This document shows positions 2,241-48,247 of a stretch of 64,000 nucleotides of DNA, piece after piece. Source of the stretch: Deltaproteobacteria bacterium. Lineage in GTDB: Bacteria; Myxococcota; Myxococcia; SLRQ01. The translations under genes and the position numbers were made by a program. Position 1 is the stretch's first letter, and each line of letters starts with the position of its first letter. The stretch is from the NCBI GenBank assembly GCA_029210625.1, contig JARGFU010000009.1:62001-126000 (forward strand). Direction: 5' to 3'. Below the pieces are notes generated by a model. That model saw nothing but the letters and a program-made list of their open reading frames with translations, was not told the origin of the DNA and did not search any database.

Positions 2241-5009
2241 ATGGGAATCTCCGCGGCTTCCATGGCCCGCAGCAGCACGCCCATCGAAGAGAAGCCCCGG
2301 GAGCCGGTGCCGGTCGATCGGACCCCCGAGGACCTGCAGCGGACGGGGAAGCTCACCCCGATGCTCCAGCAGTACCTGGAGCTGAAGGCGACCCACCAGG
2401 ACTGCCTGCTCCTCTTCCGCCTGGGCGACTTCTACGAGTGCTTCTTCCAGGACGCGGTGCAGGCCTCCGAGATCCTGGACATCACCCTGACCGCCCGGGG
2501 CAAGGGGGAGGACCGCTTCCCCATGGCGGGCATCCCCCACCACGCCTCCCGGGGGTACATCGCCCGGCTGATCGAGGCCGGCCGCAAGGTCGCCATCGCC
2601 GACCAGGTCGAGGACGCCGCCGAGGCCAAGGGCCTGGTGAAGCGCGACGTGGTGCGGGTGATCACGCCGGGGGTGGTGCTCGACGAGGACGTCCTGGAGG
2701 GCAGCGACGAGCGGCTCCTGGGGACGGTCGTCCCGGCCGGCAGCGCCGGCGAGGGCTTCGCCCTGGCCCTGCTGGAGATCTCCACCGGCGCCCTGCGCGC
2801 CACCGAGCTGCCCGGCCGGCAGGCCCTCGCCGAGGAGCTCGCCCGCTGCGGCGCCCGCGAGCTCCTCCTGGCGCCGGAGCTCTGCGCCGGGTCCCGGGAG
2901 GAGGGGCCCTCGCCCCTCGAGCGCCTGGCCGCGGACGCCCTGCGGGAGGCCACCCTCGCCCCCGGCGCCGACGCCCACTTCGGTCCGAAGCGGGCCCGCA
3001 AGGAGCTCGAGGAGCACTTCGGGGTGGCCTCGCTGGAGGGCTTCGGCGTACCCGCGGGCAAGGCGGGGGAGCCCCTCTGCCGGGCGGTGGCCGCGGCCCT
3101 GCGCTACGTGGAGGCCACCCAGAAGCGAAAGGCCACCCACGTCGATCGCCTGACGGTCTACTCGCCCGAGGGCGGCCTCACCCTCGACGCCACCAGCCGG
3201 GCGAACCTGGAGGTGGTGCGCACCCTGCGGGACGGCAAGCGCAAGGGCTCCCTCCTGGGCCTGATCGATCGCACCGTGAGCGCGGTGGGGGGGCGGACCC
3301 TCACCGCCTGGCTGCTCCACCCCCTGGGAGAGATCCCGGCCATCGACGCCCGCCTCGACGCGGTCGCCCACCTCCACGCCTCCGGCGGGCTGCGGGAGGA
3401 GCTGCAGGCCCACCTCACCGGCCTGCCGGATCTCGAGCGGGTGCTCGCCCGCCTCTCCCTCGGCCAGGGCAGCGGGCGGGATCTGAAGGCCGTGGAGCGC
3501 GCCCTCGAGCGCCTGCCCGCCCTGGCGGCGGCCCTCGCCGGGGACGAGCTGCCCCTGGCCCTGCGGGAGTGCGGGGAAGAGCTGGGCGCCCTCGACGCGC
3601 TCCACGCCCACCTCGCCGCGGCGCTGGTGGACGAGATGCCGGCCACCCTCACCGAGGGCGGGATCTTCCGGAAGGGCTACAACCCCGATCTCGACGAGAT
3701 CCTGGAGCTGGGCCGCAGCGGGAAGCAGTACCTCCTCGATCTGGAGACCCGCGAGCGGGAGCGCACCGGCATCGGCTCGCTGAAGGTCCGCTACAACCGG
3801 GTCTTCGGCTACTACATCGAGATCGGCCGGGCGAAGGCACAGGAGGTCCCCGCGGACTACGTGCGCCGCCAGACGATGAAGAACAACGAGCGCTTCATCA
3901 CCGAGGAGCTGCAGCAGTACGAGGCGAAGGTCCTCTCGGCGGACGAGCGCCGCAAGGCCCTGGAGCGGGAGCTCTTCGAGGCGCTGCGCGAGGAGGTGGT
4001 GTCGCAGGGTGGGGTGATCGGCCGGATCGCCCGGCGCCTCGGCCGCCTCGACGCGCTCCTCTCCCTCGCCCGGGTCGCGGTCGAGCAGCGCTGGGTGCGC
4101 CCGGTGGTGGACACCTCCCGGGACCTGGTGGTCGAGGGGGGGCGGCACCCGGTCATCGAGGACGCCCTGCGGCAGATGGGGGGCGAGGCCTACGTCCCCG
4201 GCGATCTGCGCCTCGACGACGAGCACACCCTCCTGGTGATCACGGGCCCCAACATGGCGGGCAAGTCGACCGTCATGCGCAAGGCGGCCATCCTCACCCT
4301 CCTGGCGCAGGCGGGCTCCTTCGTCCCGGCGCGCTCCGCCCGGGTGGGGCTGACCGACCGGATCTTCACCCGGGTGGGGGCGAGCGACGATCTCTCCCGC
4401 GGGCAGTCGACCTTCATGGTCGAGATGAACCAGACCGCGGCCATCCTCCACCACGCGACGGATCGCTCCCTGGTGATCCTCGACGAGATCGGCCGGGGGA
4501 CCTCGACCTTCGACGGCCTCTCCATCGCCTGGGCCGTGGCCGAGCACCTCCACGACGTCTCGGGGGCCCGGACCCTCTTCGCGACGCACTACCACGAGCT
4601 CGCCGACCTCGCGAAGGAGCGGCCGCGGGTGGCGAACTACACGATGGCCGTGCGGGAGTGGAACGAGAAGGTGATCTTCCTGCGCACCCTGATCCCGGGC
4701 GCGGCCAGCCGCTCCTACGGGATCCAGGTGGCCCGCCTGGCGGGGCTGCCCCGGGAGGTCCTCGAGCGGGCCGCCGCGATCCTCGCCGGCCTCGAGGCCT
4801 CGGAGCTCGACAGCCTGGGCCGCCCGGCCTTCGCCCACGGTGACCGGGAGCCGCAGGGCAGGGGACAGCTGGCCCTCTTTGGCGCGGCGCCGCGAGCCCC
4901 CTCCGAGGTCGAGAAGCTCCTGGCCGAGATCGACCCCGACGCGCTGACGCCGCGGGAGGCCCAGGGGCTGCTCTACCGCCTCGTCGAGCTCCTCTCGAAG
5001 GCGACGTAA
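2241..5009 (+). CDS. mutS: DNA mismatch repair protein MutS
   Basis: MutS recognises mismatches and starts methyl-independent or methyl-directed repair with MutL. The 922-residue product has the mismatch-reading Phe-X-Glu motif (GDFYE, about residue 60), connector and lever domains, and the ATPase domain with Walker A GPNMAGKST (bases about 4248-4274), STFMVEMNQTA, Walker B LVILDEIGRGTST and the FATHYHEL switch. The C-terminus is of normal length for the MutS1 family. The start is uncertain: ATG 2241 is used, and ATG 2262 is an in-frame alternative. Neither has a strong ribosome binding site. An inverted repeat just downstream may end the transcript. Confidence 0.97.
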   Translation: MGISAASMARSSTPIEEKPREPVPVDRTPEDLQRTGKLTPMLQQYLELKATHQDCLLLFRLGDFYECFFQDAVQASEILDITLTARGKGEDRFPMAGIPHHASRGYIARLIEAGRKVAIADQVEDAAEAKGLVKRDVVRVITPGVVLDEDVLEGSDERLLGTVVPAGSAGEGFALALLEISTGALRATELPGRQALAEELARCGARELLLAPELCAGSREEGPSPLERLAADALREATLAPGADAHFGPKRARKELEEHFGVASLEGFGVPAGKAGEPLCRAVAAALRYVEATQKRKATHVDRLTVYSPEGGLTLDATSRANLEVVRTLRDGKRKGSLLGLIDRTVSAVGGRTLTAWLLHPLGEIPAIDARLDAVAHLHASGGLREELQAHLTGLPDLERVLARLSLGQGSGRDLKAVERALERLPALAAALAGDELPLALRECGEELGALDALHAHLAAALVDEMPATLTEGGIFRKGYNPDLDEILELGRSGKQYLLDLETRERERTGIGSLKVRYNRVFGYYIEIGRAKAQEVPADYVRRQTMKNNERFITEELQQYEAKVLSADERRKALERELFEALREEVVSQGGVIGRIARRLGRLDALLSLARVAVEQRWVRPVVDTSRDLVVEGGRHPVIEDALRQMGGEAYVPGDLRLDDEHTLLVITGPNMAGKSTVMRKAAILTLLAQAGSFVPARSARVGLTDRIFTRVGASDDLSRGQSTFMVEMNQTAAILHHATDRSLVILDEIGRGTSTFDGLSIAWAVAEHLHDVSGARTLFATHYHELADLAKERPRVANYTMAVREWNEKVIFLRTLIPGAASRSYGIQVARLAGLPREVLERAAAILAGLEASELDSLGRPAFAHGDREPQGRGQLALFGAAPRAPSEVEKLLAEIDPDALTPREAQGLLYRLVELLSKAT

Positions 5010-5020
5010 TCCCGCCTTCC

Positions 5021-5054
5021 GTCAACTCCGGGAGGGCGCGCCCGGAAAGTTGAC
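5021..5054. terminator. Inverted repeat after mutS, overlapping the next promoter
   Basis: GTCAACT-CCGGG is followed by an 8-base loop, then CCCGG-AA-AGTTGAC. The seven outer and five inner pairs are perfect, with a two-base bulge. There is no T-run, so it could be a mutS terminator or, because its right arm contains the -35 TTGACC of the following gene, an operator. Confidence 0.5.
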
Positions 5055-5077
5055 CGGATCGGTTTCCCGGGTACTCT
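5050..5077 (+). promoter_or_regulatory. Candidate sigma70-type promoter of the YciO-like gene
   Basis: TTGACC, 16-base spacer, TACTCT. The predicted transcript would begin at about 5084, which is the GTG start codon itself, so the mRNA may be leaderless. Confidence 0.4.
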
Positions 5078-5083
5078 GCCGCC

Positions 5084-5707
5084 GTGTCAGGCCAGATCGC
5101 CAGGATGCTCGAGATCGATCGGGACCGCCCCAACCACCGCAGGATCGCCCAGGCGGTCGAGCTGCTCCGGGAGGGGAAGCTGGTGGCTTACCCCACCGAC
5201 GTGAACTACGGCATCGGCTGCGACCTGCACTCGAAGCGAGCCGTCGAGCGCCTGCGGGGTCTGCGGGGCCTCGACGCCAAGAAGCGCCTGACCTTCCTCT
5301 GCGAGGACCTCTCGCAGGCCTCGCGCTACGCCCGCATCGACGACGTCGCCTTCAAGCTGATGCGGAGGCTCACCCCCGGCCCCTACACCTTCATCCTCGA
5401 GGCCACCCGCGAGGTGCCCAAGGTGGTCGCGACCAAGCAGAAGTCGGTCGGGGTGCGGATCGTCGAGTCCGCGGCCGTCCTGGCGATGGTGCAGCAGCTC
5501 GGCCACCCGGTGCTCAACACCACCGCGGCGGACGTCGACGGCGCGCCCCTCGGTGATCCCCGCCTGCTGCGCGACGAGCTCGGGCACGGGATCGATCTGA
5601 TTCTGGACTGTGGCCTCAACCTCCTGGAGAGCACCACCGTGGTGGATCTCCAGGGGGAGCAGCCGGAGGTGATCCGGGTGGGGGCTGGCCCCGTGGAGGA
5701 TCTCTAG
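5084..5707 (+). CDS. YciO/YrdC/Sua5-family protein (threonylcarbamoyl-AMP synthase-like)
   Basis: The 207-residue protein is one YrdC domain: [16 protein letters not shown] at residues 32-47, [30 protein letters not shown] and PVLNTTAA. YrdC/Sua5 enzymes form threonylcarbamoyl-AMP for the t6A37 tRNA modification. The length and the sequence [17 protein letters not shown] resemble the YciO subgroup, whose exact role is less settled than TsaC, so no gene symbol is assigned. Start GTG 5084 directly follows a promoter-like element; ATG 5105 is an alternative. The stop codon directly abuts the next start, so it is co-transcribed with the recombinase gene. Confidence 0.9.
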
Positions 5708-6595
5708 ATGGACCTGCTGTTGGACCGCTATCTCGCCTTCATCCGCATGGAGAAGGGCCTCTCGCAGAACACGATCGAGGCCTACGCCCGGGATCTCGGC
5801 CGCTACCTCGAGCGGCTCGCGGAGTCCGGCATCGAGGCCCCCGCGGCCGTCCGCCGGGAGCAGATCCTCGACCACCTGCGCTCCCTCCACCAGGCCGGGC
5901 TCTCGCCGCGCTCGCAGGCGCGGGCGCTGGCGGCCATCCGCACCTTTCACCGCTACCTGGTGCGGGAGCGGGTCTGCGAGAACGACCCCACCGCGGATCT
6001 GACCACCCCCCGGACGGTCAAGCGGCTGCCCAACTTCCTGACCCTCGAGGAGGTGGACCGGCTGCTCCAGGCCCCCCCGGTGACCACCCCGGCCGGCGCC
6101 CGGGACCGGGCGATGCTCGAGGTGCTCTACGCCGCGGGCCTGCGGGTGAGCGAGCTCTGTGGCCTCGAGGTCGAGGACGCGAACCTCGAGGTGGGCTTCG
6201 TCCTGGTCCGGGGCAAGGGCGACAAGGAGCGGGTCGTCCCGCTGGGGCGCTCGGCCATCTCCTGGCTGCACCGCTACCTCGACGGCCCCCGGGAGGAGAT
6301 CCTGCGCGGCCGCACCTGCCGCAGCCTCTTCCCCTCCAACCGGGCGAGGGCGATGACCCGCCAGGCCTTCTGGAAGAACATCAAGAAGTACGCCCGGGTC
6401 GCCGGCATCGAGAAGGAGATCAGCCCGCACAAGCTGCGCCACTCCTTCGCCACCCACCTGCTGGAGGGTGGGGCGGACCTGCGCTCGGTGCAGTCCATGC
6501 TCGGCCACGCGGATCTGGCGACCACCGAGATCTACACCCACGTGGACAGCGAGCGGCTGCGCCGCCTCTACGAAGAGCACCACCCCCGGGCCTAG
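5708..6595 (+). CDS. xerD: Tyrosine site-specific recombinase XerC/XerD
   Basis: This 295-residue protein has the usual Xer size and layout: an N-terminal SAM-like DNA-binding domain (residues 1-95) and a catalytic domain. Catalytic residues are visible: Arg in [11 protein letters not shown], Lys in [17 protein letters not shown], His in [14 protein letters not shown] and the nucleophile Tyr in the same motif. Xer recombinases resolve chromosome dimers at dif with FtsK. The XerD-rather-than-XerC assignment is tentative. The neighbouring scpAB genes also act in chromosome segregation, which fits. ATG begins immediately after the upstream stop. Confidence 0.95.
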
Positions 6596-6653
6596 GGCAA
6601 GAGCCCTGTCCTGGCTGACCTTTGCGGTCCGCCCGTGGTAGACAGACGGCTTC

Positions 6654-7532
6654 ATGCAAAGCCGAGAGATCGCTGACGAGAACGCCGTCGCCGCCCCGGA
6701 AGAGGGCGGCACGCCGGGGGCGCCGGGGGGACTGCAGGTGCCAAGTGACCTGCGCCTGAACGTCCAGCTCCCCATCTTCGAGGGTCCCCTGGACCTGCTC
6801 CTCCACCTGGTGCGGGAGCACAAGCTCGACATCCTCGACATCCCCATCTCCTTCATCACCGACCGCTACGTCGAGATGCTGGAGAAGATGCAGGAGCTGA
6901 ACCTGGACGTGGCCGGCGAGTACCTGCTGATGGCCGCCACCCTGGCGCACATCAAGAGCCGGATGCTCCTGCCGCGGCCGGAGCCGGAGGCCGAAGACGA
7001 GGAGGAGGAGGGGGATCCCCGCAACGACCTCGTCCGGCGGCTGCTCGCCTACCAGAAGTACCGGGAGGCCGCGAACATGCTCTCCCGGCAGGACCTGCTG
7101 GGCCGGGACGTCTTCGCCCGCACCAGCACCCCGGGCCCGCTCCCGCTGGATCCCGGCGAGCTCGGGCTGCGCGAGGTGAGCGTCTTCAAGCTCATCGAGG
7201 GCCTCGACTCCGTCCTCAAGCGCGTGCGCCCCGAGGTGGCCCACGAGGTGATGCGGGAGGAGGTCTCGGTGGCCGACCGGATCTCCAGCCTCGTCGAGCG
7301 CCTGCGCGAGGAGCGGAACCTCAGTTTCCTGGCGCTCTTCGACGACGCCACCACCCAGACCCGGATCATCGCGACCTTCCTCGCCCTGCTGGAGATGGCC
7401 AAGCTGGGCCTCGCCCGCATCCAGCAGGCCGTCGAGGGGGAGGAGAACGCCGGCGAGATCTTCATCGCCGCAGCCGAGGGGCTCCTCGATCGCGACGACG
7501 TCACCCCCACCTCCGTGGACGAATACCGTTGA
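6654..7532 (+). CDS. scpA: Segregation and condensation protein ScpA
   Basis: ScpA is the kleisin that bridges the SMC heads. The 292 residues show the ScpA core: LRLNVQLPIFEGPLDLLLHLVREHKLDILDIPI (about residues 32-64), YLLMAATLAHIKSRMLLP and a C-terminal winged-helix segment (FLALLEMAKLGLARIQQ). About 30 extra residues precede the core. ATG 6654 follows a weak promoter-like CTGACC-N18-TAGACA whose predicted start point is only about 3 bases upstream. It overlaps scpB by four bases. Confidence 0.96.
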   Translation: MQSREIADENAVAAPEEGGTPGAPGGLQVPSDLRLNVQLPIFEGPLDLLLHLVREHKLDILDIPISFITDRYVEMLEKMQELNLDVAGEYLLMAATLAHIKSRMLLPRPEPEAEDEEEEGDPRNDLVRRLLAYQKYREAANMLSRQDLLGRDVFARTSTPGPLPLDPGELGLREVSVFKLIEGLDSVLKRVRPEVAHEVMREEVSVADRISSLVERLREERNLSFLALFDDATTQTRIIATFLALLEMAKLGLARIQQAVEGEENAGEIFIAAAEGLLDRDDVTPTSVDEYR

Positions 7533-42561: not shown

Positions 42562-44763
42562 TTACTTCACGAGGAAGGTGAAGACGCCATCCCAGCCCTC
42601 GGGCGCCTCGTCCCCGAGGCTGGCGAGGCGCTCCAGGTAGAGGGCCGCCACCGCGTCGCCGGGGTTGTCGGCCGCGAAGGCCGTGAAGGCCTCCCGGGCG
42701 GCCGGGAAGCGGCCCTCCCGCCAGGCCGCGAGGGCGGCCTCGAAGCGCTCGAGCCCGGCGTAGCTCGCGATCTGGCGGTCGGGGCCGGCGAGGAGCTCGT
42801 GGATCGAGACCGGCTCCTCCTTGCCCTTCACCCGGACCCGGTCGACCTCCCGAAAGGCGAAGCCCCCGGGGGCGGCCGCCCGGGTCTGCTCCCCGCAGAG
42901 GCAGAAGACCCCGTAGTTCTTGGTGAGCCCCTCGAGGCGCGCGGCGAGGTTCACCGCGTCGCCCACCACCGTGTAGTCGAAGCGGGCCCGCGAGCCCATG
43001 TTGCCCACGACCATCTCGCCGGTGTTCAGCCCGATCCCGATGGCGAGGTCGGCGAAGGCGCCCTCTTCGGCCGCCCGCACCTCCTCGAGGGCGGCGTGCA
43101 TGGCCAGGGCCGCCCGGAGGGCCATGGCCGGGTGATCGGGCGAGTGCACGGGCGCGCCGAAGACCGCCATGATCGCGTCGCCGATGTACTTGTCGAGGAG
43201 CCCCCCCTCGCCGAGGACCGCGCCGGTCATCGGGTCGAGATAGCGGCCCAGGAAGGCCACGACCTCCTCCGGTGAGTGCTTCTCCGAGAGCGTGGTGAAG
43301 CTGCGGATGTCCGAGAAGAGCACCGTCAGCTCCTGACGGGCGCCCCCGGGGGCCAGGGCCGCCGGGTCCCGGATGAGCTGCTCGATCACCGCCGGCGAGA
43401 GGTAGTGGGCGAAGGTGTGGCGCAGCTGGCGGCGCTGCTGGCCCTCCTGGAGCCAGCCCAGGAGGAGCCCGGCGCCCAGGGCCGAGACGAGGGCCAGCCC
43501 GGGCCCCACCGCGGCCAGCCAGAGGCCCTGGTGGCGGAAGAGGAGCCAGAGGGCGAGGGCGTGGCCCGCCGCCAGGAGGAGGGCCCCGCCGATGCGCCAG
43601 CCCGGACCGAAGCTCCAGGCCGGCAGGAAGAGGAGGACCACCCCGAGGCCCAGGAGGAGAGTGAGGAGGGCGTCGGTGAGGGGGGCGCTGCGCCGGTGGA
43701 AGTCGCCGGCCAGGAAGTTGTCGATGGCCTCGGCGTGGAGGAAGACGCCGGGCAGGACCTCGTCGAGGGGCGTGTGGAGGGCGTCGTGGCCGAGGTAGGT
43801 GACGCCGACCAGGACCATCTTCCCCTGCAGGGCGCCCTCCGGGAGCTTCCCCTCGACCACGTCGACGGCGGAGTGGAAGGGGAAGGCCTGGCGGCCCCGG
43901 AGGTTGAGCAGGGCCCGGAGCCCGGGCTCCAGGATCAGCTCTCCCCCCTCGCCCCAGGCGATGGTGGGCGGGCCCCCGGTGTAGGCGAGCCCCCCCCGGC
44001 CGTAGCCCGCGTGCCGCGCCAGGACCTGGAGGGAGAGGGGCGCGAAGGGGCGGTCCTGGTGGAAGCTCACCACCGGCAGGGTCCGGACGATCTTGTCGGG
44101 GTCCTCCTGCAGGTTGATGGTGCCCAGGGCGGCGGCCTCCCGGGCGAAGAGGGGCAGCGAGGCCAGCGCCCGCGGCGTGTTGCGGTAGGGCTCGGTCCCG
44201 GGGGCGAACTGGCCGTAGGTGCCGCGGCGCAGCGCCCGGCCGTCGACCTCCGGCCCGCCGCGGTTGCCGAGGTGGAGGGCGAGGACCACGTCCCGCCGCC
44301 GGGAGAGGGTCTCGGCGAGGATCCGGTCCCCGGCGAGAAGCTCGCTGATCTTCCGCAGGAGCTGCCAGGAGGGGAGGGCCTCACCCTCGGGGCTCCCGGG
44401 CGGCGGCTCCTCCCGCAGCAGCGCCTCGATCTCGGCGGCCAGCTCGGGCCCGAGGAGGGCCTCGGGCTCGGCGAGGAAGAGGTCGAGACCGATGACGCTG
44501 GCCCCGGCCCCGCGCAGGGCCTCGATCAGGCGGGCCAGCCCGGCCCGCCGGGTGAAGAGCTCGGGATCCCGGGCGGAGGTGGCGTCGTCCAGGCCGACCA
44601 CCACCACCTCGCCGCGGGAGGGCTGGGGGCCGCGCAGGCGCGTCCGCAGGTCGTAGCTCCAGCGCTCGAGGCTCTCCAGCGGCGCCGGGCGCAGTCCGCT
44701 GGCGAGCGCCCAGAGGGCGACCAGCAGGGCGGCGACCCAGGCGGGCTGCTTCAGGAGCCTCAC
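42562..44763 (-). CDS. CHASE2-domain adenylate cyclase
   Basis: 733 residues from GTG 44763. A membrane helix (8-24) leads to an extracytoplasmic CHASE2 sensor (about 30-345: EVVVVGLDDATSARDPELF...GKMVLVGVTYLGHDALHTPLDEVLPGVFLHAEAIDNFL). Three membrane helices (about 355-440) follow, then a class III cyclase: VLFSDIRSFTTLSEK (metal Asp), LLDKYIGDAIMAVFGAP (ATP-selecting Lys and metal Asp) and YTVVGDAVNLAARLEG (Asn, Arg). A short TPR-like tail ends the protein. It should make cAMP in response to an unknown periplasmic signal. It overlaps the FecR-like gene by four bases (GTGA). Confidence 0.95.
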   Translation of the reverse strand: MRLLKQPAWVAALLVALWALASGLRPAPLESLERWSYDLRTRLRGPQPSRGEVVVVGLDDATSARDPELFTRRAGLARLIEALRGAGASVIGLDLFLAEPEALLGPELAAEIEALLREEPPPGSPEGEALPSWQLLRKISELLAGDRILAETLSRRRDVVLALHLGNRGGPEVDGRALRRGTYGQFAPGTEPYRNTPRALASLPLFAREAAALGTINLQEDPDKIVRTLPVVSFHQDRPFAPLSLQVLARHAGYGRGGLAYTGGPPTIAWGEGGELILEPGLRALLNLRGRQAFPFHSAVDVVEGKLPEGALQGKMVLVGVTYLGHDALHTPLDEVLPGVFLHAEAIDNFLAGDFHRRSAPLTDALLTLLLGLGVVLLFLPAWSFGPGWRIGGALLLAAGHALALWLLFRHQGLWLAAVGPGLALVSALGAGLLLGWLQEGQQRRQLRHTFAHYLSPAVIEQLIRDPAALAPGGARQELTVLFSDIRSFTTLSEKHSPEEVVAFLGRYLDPMTGAVLGEGGLLDKYIGDAIMAVFGAPVHSPDHPAMALRAALAMHAALEEVRAAEEGAFADLAIGIGLNTGEMVVGNMGSRARFDYTVVGDAVNLAARLEGLTKNYGVFCLCGEQTRAAAPGGFAFREVDRVRVKGKEEPVSIHELLAGPDRQIASYAGLERFEAALAAWREGRFPAAREAFTAFAADNPGDAVAALYLERLASLGDEAPEGWDGVFTFLVK

Positions 44764-45839
44764 GGACGGGTCAGGCGCAGGGTGATCCAGCCCTTGCTGT
44801 CCTTCTTGCCCTTCCAGGCCTGGCCCAGCAGGTGCGGCCGCGCGCAGAGGGGCAGGGGGCGGGCGCCCTCGAGCCGGGCGCGGACGATCTTTCCGTCCTT
44901 CACCTTGAAGAGGAGGGTCATCACGTTACGCGGCGGCGGCAGCTCTTTGAAGAGACACTTGCGCAGGGCCTGGTTCCGCAGGAGCTGCCGCCGGTTGAGG
45001 GGGGCGGAGGTGCTGGCCTTCGCCTCCTCCTTCGCCTTGGCCTTCTCCAGCGCGGGCGCGGGCGCGGGCGCTCCGCCGCGGGCCTCCGTGGCCTGCAGCC
45101 GGGCGCCCTCGAGGGCGTCGTCGGCCTCGGAGAGGGAGAGGTCGGCGGAGCCGGTCTTCGGCGGGGCGGGCGGCGCCTCGAGGGCGGCCGGGGCCGCGCC
45201 GGCCAGGCCGTCGGCCGCGCCGACCATCGAGCGGGCCGAGTCCTCTTCCCGCTCGAGCGCGGCGGCCTCCCGGGGGGGCGGGGGCGGCGCCGGGGAGGCG
45301 CTCGGGGCGGGGCGCGCCGGGGGCTTCATCGGGACCGACCTCGCCGCCGAGAGGGACTTCTTGCTGGAGCGGGCCCCCTTCGAGGCCGGGGCCGCCGGGA
45401 CGGTCTCCACGGCCGTGATCCGGGAGTGCCAGCCGGCCGTCCGCTCGGCGCTGGCGAGGGCCTCCGCGCGCAGGGGCTCCTCCTCGGGGTAGAGGAGGGC
45501 GGCGAGCTGCCTCGCCGCGGGCGCGGCCTCTCGCGTGGTGCCGAGGAGCGCGATCTTGTCCACCCGCAGGCGCAGCTCCTCGTCGATGCGGACCAGGTGA
45601 CCGTTCTTCAGGTGGAGGATGGCGAAGGACTCGAAGTCGGTGACGATGACGTCCCGCCCGTCGAGCTGGGTCCCCACGGCGAGGGCCCGGGGCTCCTGCC
45701 CCGGGCGCTGCAGCTCCACCTCCCCCTGGACGAGGATCACCTGCGCGAGGGGCTCGCCGGCCTCGCTCGATCCCGAGACGAAGAGGAGGGTGAGGGCGAG
45801 GAAGAGGGGGAGCTTCGTGCGCAGGGTGGTCATGGTCAC
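44760..45839 (-). CDS. Secreted FecR-like-domain protein with long Ala/Pro linker
   Basis: 359 residues from GTG 45839 (AGGAG seven bases upstream); ATG 45833 is the alternative. After the signal peptide (LPLFLALTLLFVSGSSEA), residues 30-100 form a FecR-like domain (AQVILVQGEVELQRPGQEPRALAVGTQLDGRDVIVTD...HLVRIDEELRLRVDKI). A Ser/Ala/Pro/Lys linker of 170 residues leads to a C-terminal domain (LLRNQALRKCLFKELPPPRNVMTLLFKVKDGKIVRARLEG), similar to the TonB-C/AgmX-type domain of myxobacterial adventurous-motility and envelope proteins. It is in an operon between the radical SAM and CHASE2 cyclase genes. Confidence 0.8.
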   Translation of the reverse strand: MTMTTLRTKLPLFLALTLLFVSGSSEAGEPLAQVILVQGEVELQRPGQEPRALAVGTQLDGRDVIVTDFESFAILHLKNGHLVRIDEELRLRVDKIALLGTTREAAPAARQLAALLYPEEEPLRAEALASAERTAGWHSRITAVETVPAAPASKGARSSKKSLSAARSVPMKPPARPAPSASPAPPPPPREAAALEREEDSARSMVGAADGLAGAAPAALEAPPAPPKTGSADLSLSEADDALEGARLQATEARGGAPAPAPALEKAKAKEEAKASTSAPLNRRQLLRNQALRKCLFKELPPPRNVMTLLFKVKDGKIVRARLEGARPLPLCARPHLLGQAWKGKKDSKGWITLRLTRP

Positions 45840-45889
45840 GGCGAGTCTCCTCTCGCGGACGCCTCCGGTCAAAGGGGGCTGGAGGACCA

Positions 45890-48247
45890 TCAGTCCTTCT
45901 TCTTCCGCCGCTTCTTCTTCGGGGCCTCCAGCTCGAGCTTGAGGGTCGTGCGCTGGTCCCGGGCGATCCGGATCGTGCGCGTCTCGTCGATGCCCGCCGC
46001 CTCGTCGTGGAGACGGACGGTGTGCTCGCCGACCTTCAGGTCCTCCAGGTAGACCGGGGTTCGCCCTCGCTCCACCCCGTCCACGCTGATGTCCACCTCG
46101 GGCCGGGTCGAGAGGTAGAGCTGACCGGTGCCCAGGCGCTCCGGCGGCGGTGGCGGCGGCGGCGGCGGATCGAAGGGGGGCGGGGCAGCCTCGGCCACGC
46201 CGTCCTGGAGCCGGATGAGCTCGTCGTCGAAGGGGGGCGGCGCCGCCTCGGCCACCCCGTCCTGGCGGCGGAGCACCTCGATCTCGTCGAAGGGGGGCGG
46301 GGCGGCCTCGGCGACGCCGTCGACCCGGCGCACCCGCTCCTTCTGCTTCGCCGGCCGGGCGGGGGCGGGCGCCAGCGCCGGGGTCGAGGCGCCCGCGCTG
46401 CGGGCCTCGGCGTCGCTCGGCGGTCCGTAGGCGTTGCCGTCGTGGATCACCGAGGTGTCCTCGTGGGCCTGCGGCGGCGGGTCCTGCGGGGCCGGCGGCG
46501 GTCCGTCGTAGACCTCGTCGTAGGGGGGCGGCGCGGCCTCGGCCACCCCGTGGTCCACCTTCGAGCGCCCGCTGCAGGCCGTGGCGCTCGCCAGCCCCGC
46601 GGCCACCAGCACCGCGGCGGCGTGGCGGGGGAGGCGGGCCAGGCGGGAGGCCAGGCCCTCCGGGGGCAGGGCCTCGCCCACGGCCAGGTCGATCACCGGG
46701 GAGGTCAGGCCGTCGATCCGGGCCCGCAGCTCGCAGAGCCGCTCGAGCTGCACGCGCCGGCTGGAGAGCTCGCGCCGGGAGAGCTCGGCCAGGCCCCGGG
46801 CGAGGGCGGGATCGTCGTCGGAGGGAGCCTCGCCGCAGAGGAGCACCAGCTCCCGGAAGTAGGCGGCGGTCTCCAGGTTCAGGTCGATCTCGAAGCGGGC
46901 GAAGTCGCCGGCCGTGCGGCGGGCCTTCCGGCCCCCGTAGAAGTGGCGCAGGACGGCCGCCTGGTGGTCGAGGCGGATGACCTGCCCGAGCAGGTCGTCC
47001 TTGCCCCAGCAGCGCCCGGCGAAGAGGTCCTTGCCCTTCTCCCAGACCCGGGCCACCCGGGGGTCGGCGTAGCGGTAGGTGCGGGCGAGGTAGCTGCCCT
47101 GGGCGCGCCCCTCGGCGATCATCCGCGCCTCGAGGGGGGTCCCGGCGTAGAGCTCGGCCCGGCAGTAGTTCAGGGGGTGGGCCGGGTGGCGCTCCACGAA
47201 GGCGAGGTCCGAGAGCATGCTCTCGATCGTCGCGTCGGGGTGGAAGATGATCATCGTGTACTGGGAGGAGAGCTCCAGCGCCTCGCAGAGGGCGACGGCT
47301 CCTTCGGCCTCCTCGGGGGTCTGGCGCCGGCCGATGGAGTCCATCCCGCGCTGGCTGGAGGACTCGATCCCCAGGAAGATGCGCAGCAGGCCCATCTCCA
47401 GGAGCTGCTCCAGGGCCGGGCGGTCGACGTCCCGGGGCCCCGCCTTCATCACGATCCCGATCCCCTCGAGCCCGTGGCCGTCGATGGCGTCGGCCAGCCG
47501 GCCGAGGCGCTCGCGGTTGTTCTTCGGGTTGGGCACCAGGAAGTTGTCGTCGTGAAAGACGAACTGCCGGACGCCGCGGGCGTGGAGGAAGGCCATCTCC
47601 CGGGCGATGTCCTCGGGCTCCCGGCGGCGGAAGCGCGGCCCCTCGACCTGGCGGTGGAGGGTGGCGATGCAGCAGTAGTCGCAGGCCCTCACGCAGCCCC
47701 GGGCCCCCATCAGGTAGGCGGTCGGGACGCCGGCCAGGAGGCGGGCGGGGCCGGCGCGATCGGGGAAGGGGAGGGACTCGAGCTCGCGGCGGACGGGGCG
47801 GGGCGCGCTCCGGCGCAGGTGCTCGCCCTCCCGGTGGACCAGGCCCGGCACCTCCGGGGCGCGGCGCAGCAGCCCGGCGCCCAGGCCGGCCAGCTCGACC
47901 AGGCTGTCCTCGGCCTCGTGGAGGAGGATCAGATCGAGGGCCGGGACGTCCCGGAGGATCGCCTCGGCGGCGCAGGTGGCGAAGTGCCCGCCGGCGATCA
48001 CCGGCCGCGCGGGATCCTCGGCCTTCAAGGCCTCGGCCAGGGCGAAGAACTGCGGGGCCCGGACCTGGAAGGAGAGGGAGAGGCCGACCAGATCGGCGCC
48101 CCGCGCCAGGCCCAGGACCCGGGCGGCGTCGGCGGGGCCGTTGAAGGCCGCCTGGAGGGCCTCGTGGCCCGCCTGCTGGAGGGAGGCCGCCAGGTAGCCC
48201 AGCGAGACGTTGGCCTCGAGGTCGGGACCGACCAGGAGCACGCGCAT
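45890..48247 (-). CDS. B12-binding-type radical SAM protein with repeated VAEAAPPP(F/Y)D motifs and PEGA-like C-terminus
   Basis: 785 residues. Residues 1-145 are a cobalamin-binding-like domain (LLVGPDLEANVSLGYLAASLQQAGHE, VGLSLSFQ, VIAGGHFA) without the DxHxxG base-off motif. The radical SAM core has CVRACDYC (Cys185, 189, 192), FVFHDDNFL and FLGIESSSQRGMDSI. At about 540-558 a hydrophobic stretch ends in a lipobox-like ASATAC (Cys558). Then come four copies of (D)GVAEAAPPP(F/Y)D at 565-578, 643-655, 663-675 and 682-693, a polyproline run, a PEGA-like domain (about 705-771: LYLSTRPEVDISVDGVERGRTPVYLEDLKVGEHTVRL) and a Lys/Arg tail. The role is unknown. It is the first gene of the FecR/CHASE2 operon. 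Confidence 0.88.
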   Translation of the reverse strand: MRVLLVGPDLEANVSLGYLAASLQQAGHEALQAAFNGPADAARVLGLARGADLVGLSLSFQVRAPQFFALAEALKAEDPARPVIAGGHFATCAAEAILRDVPALDLILLHEAEDSLVELAGLGAGLLRRAPEVPGLVHREGEHLRRSAPRPVRRELESLPFPDRAGPARLLAGVPTAYLMGARGCVRACDYCCIATLHRQVEGPRFRRREPEDIAREMAFLHARGVRQFVFHDDNFLVPNPKNNRERLGRLADAIDGHGLEGIGIVMKAGPRDVDRPALEQLLEMGLLRIFLGIESSSQRGMDSIGRRQTPEEAEGAVALCEALELSSQYTMIIFHPDATIESMLSDLAFVERHPAHPLNYCRAELYAGTPLEARMIAEGRAQGSYLARTYRYADPRVARVWEKGKDLFAGRCWGKDDLLGQVIRLDHQAAVLRHFYGGRKARRTAGDFARFEIDLNLETAAYFRELVLLCGEAPSDDDPALARGLAELSRRELSSRRVQLERLCELRARIDGLTSPVIDLAVGEALPPEGLASRLARLPRHAAAVLVAAGLASATACSGRSKVDHGVAEAAPPPYDEVYDGPPPAPQDPPPQAHEDTSVIHDGNAYGPPSDAEARSAGASTPALAPAPARPAKQKERVRRVDGVAEAAPPPFDEIEVLRRQDGVAEAAPPPFDDELIRLQDGVAEAAPPPFDPPPPPPPPPERLGTGQLYLSTRPEVDISVDGVERGRTPVYLEDLKVGEHTVRLHDEAAGIDETRTIRIARDQRTTLKLELEAPKKKRRKKKD
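46169..46555 (-). repeat. Four coding repeats of the GVAEAAPPP(F/Y)D motif
   Basis: The last three copies are 20 and 19 residues apart, and the first lies 78 residues before them. The peptide is strictly conserved except for F/Y and the acidic residues after it, while the linkers differ, so selection acts on the motif rather than this being mere DNA duplication. Confidence 0.85.

Follow-up and report, generated by a model that had tools for sequence, protein, structure and literature searches.

The radical SAM gene at 45890..48247 on the minus strand of the window, i.e., the whole stretch of 64,000 nucleotides analyzed here, encodes an enzyme with a long C-terminal tail in which a short peptide is repeated. 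The question raised by this locus is whether such an enzyme carries its own substrate. A repeated core peptide modified by the enzyme to which it is attached had been suggested in an earlier note on this DNA, as had a repeated ligand for a partner protein, and both readings are considered below.

Domain Layout and Enzyme Class

The gene (start ATG, stop TGA) specifies a protein of 785 aa, whose layout was derived from the ORF, Pfam, and the family alignment. Pfam places in it a B12-binding domain (PF02310, E 1.4e-11) at residues 13-119 (47891..48211, minus strand), a Radical_SAM domain (PF04055, E 2.6e-15) at residues 183-346 (47210..47701, minus strand), and a PEGA domain (PF08308, E 3.8e-7) at residues 712-774 (45926..46114, minus strand), all above the gathering score, and no other domain. 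The [4Fe-4S] motif CxxxCxxC is represented by CVRACDYC at residues 185-192 (47672..47695, minus strand), and its residues Cys185, Cys189, and Cys192 are all invariant across 14 diverse family members. The radical SAM and PEGA-like assignments of the earlier note were thus borne out. Due to the B12-binding domain, which had not been named there, the enzyme class becomes cobalamin-dependent radical SAM, and the window enzyme is a member of this superfamily (class B). Between the enzyme part and the repeats, the signal-like hydrophobic segment RHAAAVLVAAGLASATAC (46574..46627, minus strand), assigned from sequence and family hydropathy, runs up to the lipobox-like Cys558, as had been described before. 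Segment and Cys are internal, situated C-terminal of the cytoplasmic-type enzyme part, and the PEGA domain that follows further downstream has a fold that is usual in extracytoplasmic proteins. In the AlphaFold2 model of the whole protein the core is confident, while the tail is disordered and undocked (pLDDT ~25-30).

By fold and sequence, the enzyme matches the cobalamin radical SAM enzymes OxsB, TsrM, TokK, CysS, and MgmA, with OxsB, TsrM, and CysS returned by Foldseek. Enzymes of this class mostly methylate carbon, C-methylation being the usual reaction of cobalamin radical SAM enzymes, and some members perform other reactions. None of the curated NCBIfam models reaches its cutoff with the window protein or its relatives. 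Two RiPP enzymes are among the best NCBIfam neighbors, but both lie far below cutoff, namely ApyD (NF050148) with 78.9 versus 750 bits and TIGR03975 with 36.0 versus 281.85 bits for the window protein, and the relatives score below cutoff as well. The similarities to hopanoid and ladderane-lipid enzymes are all far below cutoff, too, and the tail-named radical SAM families NF040546 and NF040542 are distant relatives.

The GVAEAAPPP Repeats

The four copies of GVAEAAPPP[YF]D reported previously were confirmed as exact repeats in the tail of the window protein, all on the minus strand: GVAEAAPPPYD at residues 567-577 (46517..46549), and GVAEAAPPPFD at residues 644-654 (46286..46318), 664-674 (46226..46258), and 683-693 (46169..46201). 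Any two copies differ in 2-5 of 11 codons and in at most one amino acid. These silent codon changes argue for preservation of the peptide, more than for a recent duplication of a DNA repeat. A degenerate DNA pattern for GVAEA[AP]PPP matched only the four window copies in the 6.1-Mb genome (reversed control: 0), and a free-standing GVAEAAPPP protein was accordingly not detected with this pattern in the same genome.

Seven close homologues (L032-L038) were obtained from a scan of genome contigs. They originate mostly from myxobacterial MAGs (Sandaracinus, Myxococcales, and Archangiaceae), with one source labelled Bdellovibrio and one an uncultured proteobacterium. Six proteins, including that of the window, contain GV[AI]EA[AP]PPP in 3-5 copies each. 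At the position that follows, 11 of 22 copies have Y, F, or W, whereas I, L, N, or M is present in the remaining 11, and hence an aromatic residue is not a conserved feature of the motif. The statement that F/Y always occupies the same place therefore holds inside the window protein and fails across the six homologues. Within the GVAEAAPPP clade, identity between proteins amounts to 81% for the 11-mer motif, compared to 19% for the preceding and 7% for the following 11 residues, which is not what a mere spacer would display. Furthermore, RHxA ahead of the hydrophobic segment is common to all eight clade members, R541, H542, and A544 being invariant in the alignment. In the case of L034 the segment ends SPI-like, with APLAAAQDG instead of the usual Cys.

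A SPASM-type, cyclophane-forming radical SAM enzyme was considered and rejected, since the architecture is B12-binding, Pfam reports no SPASM domain match in the window protein, and the aromatic residue is present in half of the copies. The link to cyclophane formation, offered as speculation in the earlier note, was for the same reasons not borne out.

Gene Neighborhood

The stop codon of the radical SAM gene overlaps the ATG of the next gene (TGATG, 45888-45892), which makes local co-transcription likely and is not a family-wide feature. This next gene (44760-45890, minus strand) encodes a secreted Ala/Pro-rich protein of 376 aa with a signal-like N-terminus and a C-terminal domain of ~70 aa containing KELPPPRN. 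Its previous label as FecR-like could not be upheld, due to the lack of a Pfam match and an NCBIfam retention-module score below cutoff (17.5 versus 50 bits). A relation of this protein to the domains of EMAP-class tails (see the following section) was also rejected, as no similarity was observed. The last gene of the local operon (42562-44763, minus strand) encodes a CHASE2 domain and an adenylate/guanylate cyclase, and here Pfam agrees with the former description. None of the neighbors of the window gene, including the 376-aa gene and the cyclase gene, is conserved beside the homologues; the hint at envelope signalling that had been drawn from the operon thus lacks support. Clustering of the flanks across the family returned generic genes only, plus a partner lipoprotein at a few loci. 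This motif-bearing lipoprotein is the sole recurrent specific neighbor in the family.

Motif Classes in the Wider Family

Profile searches covered 195 genomes of the sample of the window's phylum and 379 genomes of a second phylum-level group, 35 of the latter being positive. After removal of repeats the family as recovered comprises ~80 members, among which a few near-duplicates remain; most relatives are MAG contigs, some of them truncated, and their ORF starts are uncurated. The fusion is not peculiar to the window protein: most homologues extend beyond residue 540 instead of ending near it, and a long tail was observed in 53 of 80 members, 48 of which belong to the main clade. At least two [DE][PAMRIV]xP motifs follow the hydrophobic segment in 44 of these 48 fused members, at least three motifs are present in 42, and a Cys follows the segment in 43. 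In total, the 48 tails contain 249 such motifs versus 107 +/- 10 (maximum 133) in composition-preserving shuffles.

The motif classes of the tails include GVAEAAPPP, VVDPPPPDAG, PPPDPLPPP (L132, L133, and L158), and EMAPRPPP (L110 and L113). Examples of the VVDPPPPD class are L065 with eight DPxP motifs and L126 with twelve by a broad pattern. The tails are rich in Pro, Ala, and Asp, differ in length, and are unalignable outside the repeats. Considering this composition and variable length, together with the frequent occurrence of proline-rich linkers in lipoproteins, one might presume a low-complexity spacer without specific function that resulted from a fortuitous fusion of a radical SAM and a lipoprotein gene. 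We regard this as hardly credible, since identity of the motif is far above that of its flanks, motif counts are more than twice those of the shuffles, the peptide was kept through silent codon changes, and the motif recurs across distinct clades, both in cis and, as described in the next section, in trans.

In a tree built from the enzyme cores alone, the GVAEAAPPP, EMAP, and PPDPLPPP classes each form a single clade (SH-aLRT >=98). With the eight motif-class labels set by eye ahead of tree building, nine changes are needed on the enzyme tree, with a minimum of seven and a mean of 50 for shuffled labels. These motif-class clades could in part reflect the shared descent of one polypeptide.

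Exceptions are given by L037, L038, and L098 with a degenerate or absent motif, and by L034, L028, L029, and L096, in which the Cys after the hydrophobic segment is missing. The tail of L038 contains an ASH/HYDIN-type Ig domain. In EMAP-class tails (L110, L113, L116, L124, L028, and L029), TonB-C/AgmX-like C-terminal domains were read by eye around the motifs. A distant sister group (L095 and L162-L165; ~270-300 bits) has kept the hydrophobic segment and the Cys, and its tails, several of which are Thr/Asp-rich, occur without a repeated motif.

Tail-Less Enzymes and Separate Partner Proteins

One clade of 16 members (support 98) is tail-less. Next to 15 of these lies a gene for a protein with an R/H-rich N-region, a hydrophobic stretch, a Cys, and a V-x-D-[PM]-x-P-x (DP) motif; in the case of the sixteenth member, L150, the contig ends within the partner gene. 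Partners of this type are those of L060 (AALAGCGCLVMDPLPPPAQC), L061 (ALAAGCSPFAVVDPLPPPAKC, with AAGCSPFAVVDPLPPPAKC as an example of segment, Cys, and motif), L062 (TMACQPPYGVVDPLPPPARC), L063 (VTGCTSCIVSDPLPQPSAC), L064 (LSCAPMVCDPLPPPAQC), and L059 (LTNCLCVGAVDPAPPPLEC), as well as those of L107, L130, L149, and L151-L156. For L061, the enzyme gene is located at 5781-7385 and the partner gene at 5140-5715, both on the minus strand. A typical separate partner of this clade has the hydrophobic segment and Cys at its N-terminal side and carries V-V-D-P-L-P-P-P. A strict version of the partner pattern occurs seven times in 1.06 Mb of six-frame translation from which radical SAM ORFs were excluded, and all seven occurrences are located within 1.5 kb of tail-less members. 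For a second tail-less clade, L142-L147, a lipoprotein-like gene is situated just upstream in five of six cases, and EMAP[TS]P is present in both partners that were displayed over their full length. When the C-terminal domain of the fused VVDP tails was used as a profile against a small custom database, matches were obtained with the partners of L145 and L147 (E 1.2e-5) and of L059 (E 5e-5), and with no other protein outside the fused class in that database. These matches indicate direct homology between the fused tail and the separately encoded partner.

Many partners (those of L060-L064, L130, L150, L152, L154, and L155) possess a leader-like N-terminal [LM]xE[VI]LPxP segment. As a general feature of fused linkers, an E[VI]LPxP leader was not found, and GEALPPEG in the window protein is its sole recurrence there; covalent fusion would presumably remove the need for a leader. 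The partner segment itself resembles the [DE]xxPxP motif and may be a leader or a second target. At the L152 locus, two tandem partner lipoprotein genes (MPEVLPDPT...) are located downstream of one tail-less radical SAM gene (reverse complement, ~4670-5700), an arrangement like that of multi-precursor RiPP loci. The Anaeromyxobacter-like pair L030 and L031 has a different upstream partner (L030:5211-5753 and L031:4913-5446, both plus strand), which is Arg/Lys-rich, contains two FGP[IV]xDPGP motifs without a hydrophobic segment, and in L030 is encoded 62 bp upstream. Tentatively, this protein is a possible cytoplasmic partner.

The separate partners also bear on the reading of the tail as a membrane anchor combined with an extracytoplasmic proline-rich ligand of an envelope partner, in which the motif is kept for binding and the enzyme modifies something else, e.g., a membrane lipid. 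The signal-like segment and the extracytoplasmic-type domains (PEGA in the window protein and the Ig domain in L038) would suit such an anchor, proline-rich repeats commonly serve as protein-binding ligands, and a lipid substrate would match the NCBIfam similarity to hopanoid and ladderane-lipid enzymes, far below cutoff as it is; HpnJ and HpnR, distantly similar B12-radical SAM enzymes, act on a membrane lipid. A tail-less enzyme adjoining a separate motif-bearing lipoprotein, however, leaves a cytoplasmic enzyme without anchor. Moreover, no recurrent envelope partner or lipid gene was observed nearby, and the motif class tracks the enzyme clade. We therefore judge this reading to be unlikely.

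Occurrence of the motif in a separate protein is likewise difficult to reconcile with an enzyme accessory, i.e., a tail that would swing or act as a chelator to present metal, cofactor, or substrate, comparable to the tails of CUAEP/CCAEP-tail enzymes and of the RCCLKC-tail ArsL. Distant relatives among the tail-named NCBIfam families (NF040546 and NF040542) speak for an accessory. Yet those names denote short Cys/Sec-rich tails, whereas the motif described here is devoid of Cys, is repeated up to ~12 times, and lies beyond a hydrophobic export-type segment, which makes an accessory tail quite improbable.

A Probable Fusion of Enzyme and Substrate

Considering these alternatives, a one-gene modification system, in which a cobalamin radical SAM enzyme is fused to its own exportable substrate tail, is in our opinion the probable explanation, held with some reserve. 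The earlier idea of a repeated core peptide on its own enzyme is strengthened by repeats kept in otherwise unalignable tails among ~80 homologues and by the motif-bearing lipoprotein-like gene beside tail-less homologues, but without the aromatic residue as a conserved feature. We infer the motif as the modified site, as well as chemistry, topology, and lipidation or cleavage, as follows. The N-terminal ~520 residues constitute the cobalamin-dependent radical SAM enzyme, while the C-terminal ~230 residues would serve as the substrate of this enzyme, in the form of a lipoprotein-like tail that can be exported. The four GVAEAAPPPxD cores of the tail would represent, for this clade, a [DE]-[P/A/M]-x-P core common to the whole family. 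Before export, the enzyme would modify one residue per motif in the cytoplasm, most likely by C-methylation, a reaction made probable by the nearest solved relatives OxsB, TsrM, TokK, CysS, and MgmA. Subsequently, translocation of the tail would proceed via the internal signal-like segment, with Cys558 as a possible site of lipidation and cleavage. In the relatives with separate partners, the same system would be divided into two adjacent genes. Modification would have to outrun export, for which MNIO-modified lipoproteins may serve as a precedent (PMC12636315).

Judged from sequence, a conserved repeated motif in a variable tail on the enzyme polypeptide is present, as expected of a fused-precursor RiPP, and so are split relatives with a separate, putative precursor encoded next to the enzyme. 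Neither GVAEAAPPP and related motifs nor a fused B12-radical SAM precursor or a radical SAM-lipoprotein system were found in the open literature, in which related work concerns borosins, burpitides, and MNIO enzymes. The window protein thus looks like a fused RiPP enzyme within the cobalamin radical SAM superfamily, belonging to an apparently undescribed family. With doubt somewhat outweighing confidence, we tentatively propose a new class of ribosomally synthesized and post-translationally modified proteins, in which cobalamin radical SAM enzymes act on multiple [DE]-x-x-P cores in a covalently attached tail. This tail would be exported via an internal signal peptide as a modified lipoprotein, so that a single gene would give rise both to an exported, modified product and to an enzyme remnant tethered to the membrane. 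Among Myxococcota-type genomes, such a class would be widespread, occurring fused as well as split. If true, this undescribed family would have up to several paralogues per genome and offer a candidate function for some of the many myxobacterial B12-radical SAM genes without assigned role. Split pairs, e.g., those of L060-L064, are ready for direct expression and assay.

Comparison with Known Systems

The window enzyme shares its two-domain architecture and fold with cobalamin radical SAM methyltransferases (TsrM, CysS, TokK, OxsB, and MgmA; TIGR03975 and ApyD), of which, to our knowledge, none is attached to its substrate in the form of a tail that can be exported. We know of few fused enzyme-substrate RiPP systems, namely borosins and burpitides, and no fused system found in the open literature uses cobalamin radical chemistry or exports a lipoprotein-like tail.

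In borosins, enzyme and C-terminal core are likewise fused in frame (OphMA types I-III), and split homologues exist (type IV, "split borosins") (PMC8429565, PMC11285071). Borosin enzymes are SAM-dependent alpha-N-methyltransferases, whereas the enzyme described here is a cobalamin radical SAM enzyme, with an export/lipoprotein-type segment between enzyme and core and with multiple cores. Membership in the borosins was rejected, as Pfam detects no alpha-N-methyltransferase domain. Burpitide cyclases (BURP-domain) occur in fused autocatalytic and in split pathways with multicore precursors and an often adjacent precursor gene (PMC12186524), and thus resemble the present family in the presence of both forms within one family, in the multiple cores, and in the adjacent precursor; they differ from it as copper-dependent plant enzymes that form aromatic crosslinks and whose fold is unrelated to that of the window enzyme. 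Due to the alternation between cis and trans, which in borosins and burpitides accompanies an attached or adjacent peptide that is the substrate, the enzyme would be expected to act on the [DE]xxP motifs in the tail to which it is fused.

For DAG-RiPPs, a lipoprotein-type precursor is modified by an MNIO in the cytoplasm before it enters the lipoprotein pathway, and other enzyme families are expected to modify lipoprotein precursors likewise (PMC12636315). A lipoprotein-type precursor modified in the cytoplasm would be common to both systems, in the present case as a prediction from the protein sequence. Membership in the MNIO DAG-RiPPs was rejected on account of the B12-radical SAM enzyme: the DAG-RiPP enzyme is an unfused MNIO (DUF692), whereas in the family of the window protein a cobalamin radical SAM enzyme takes this place and is usually fused to the tail.
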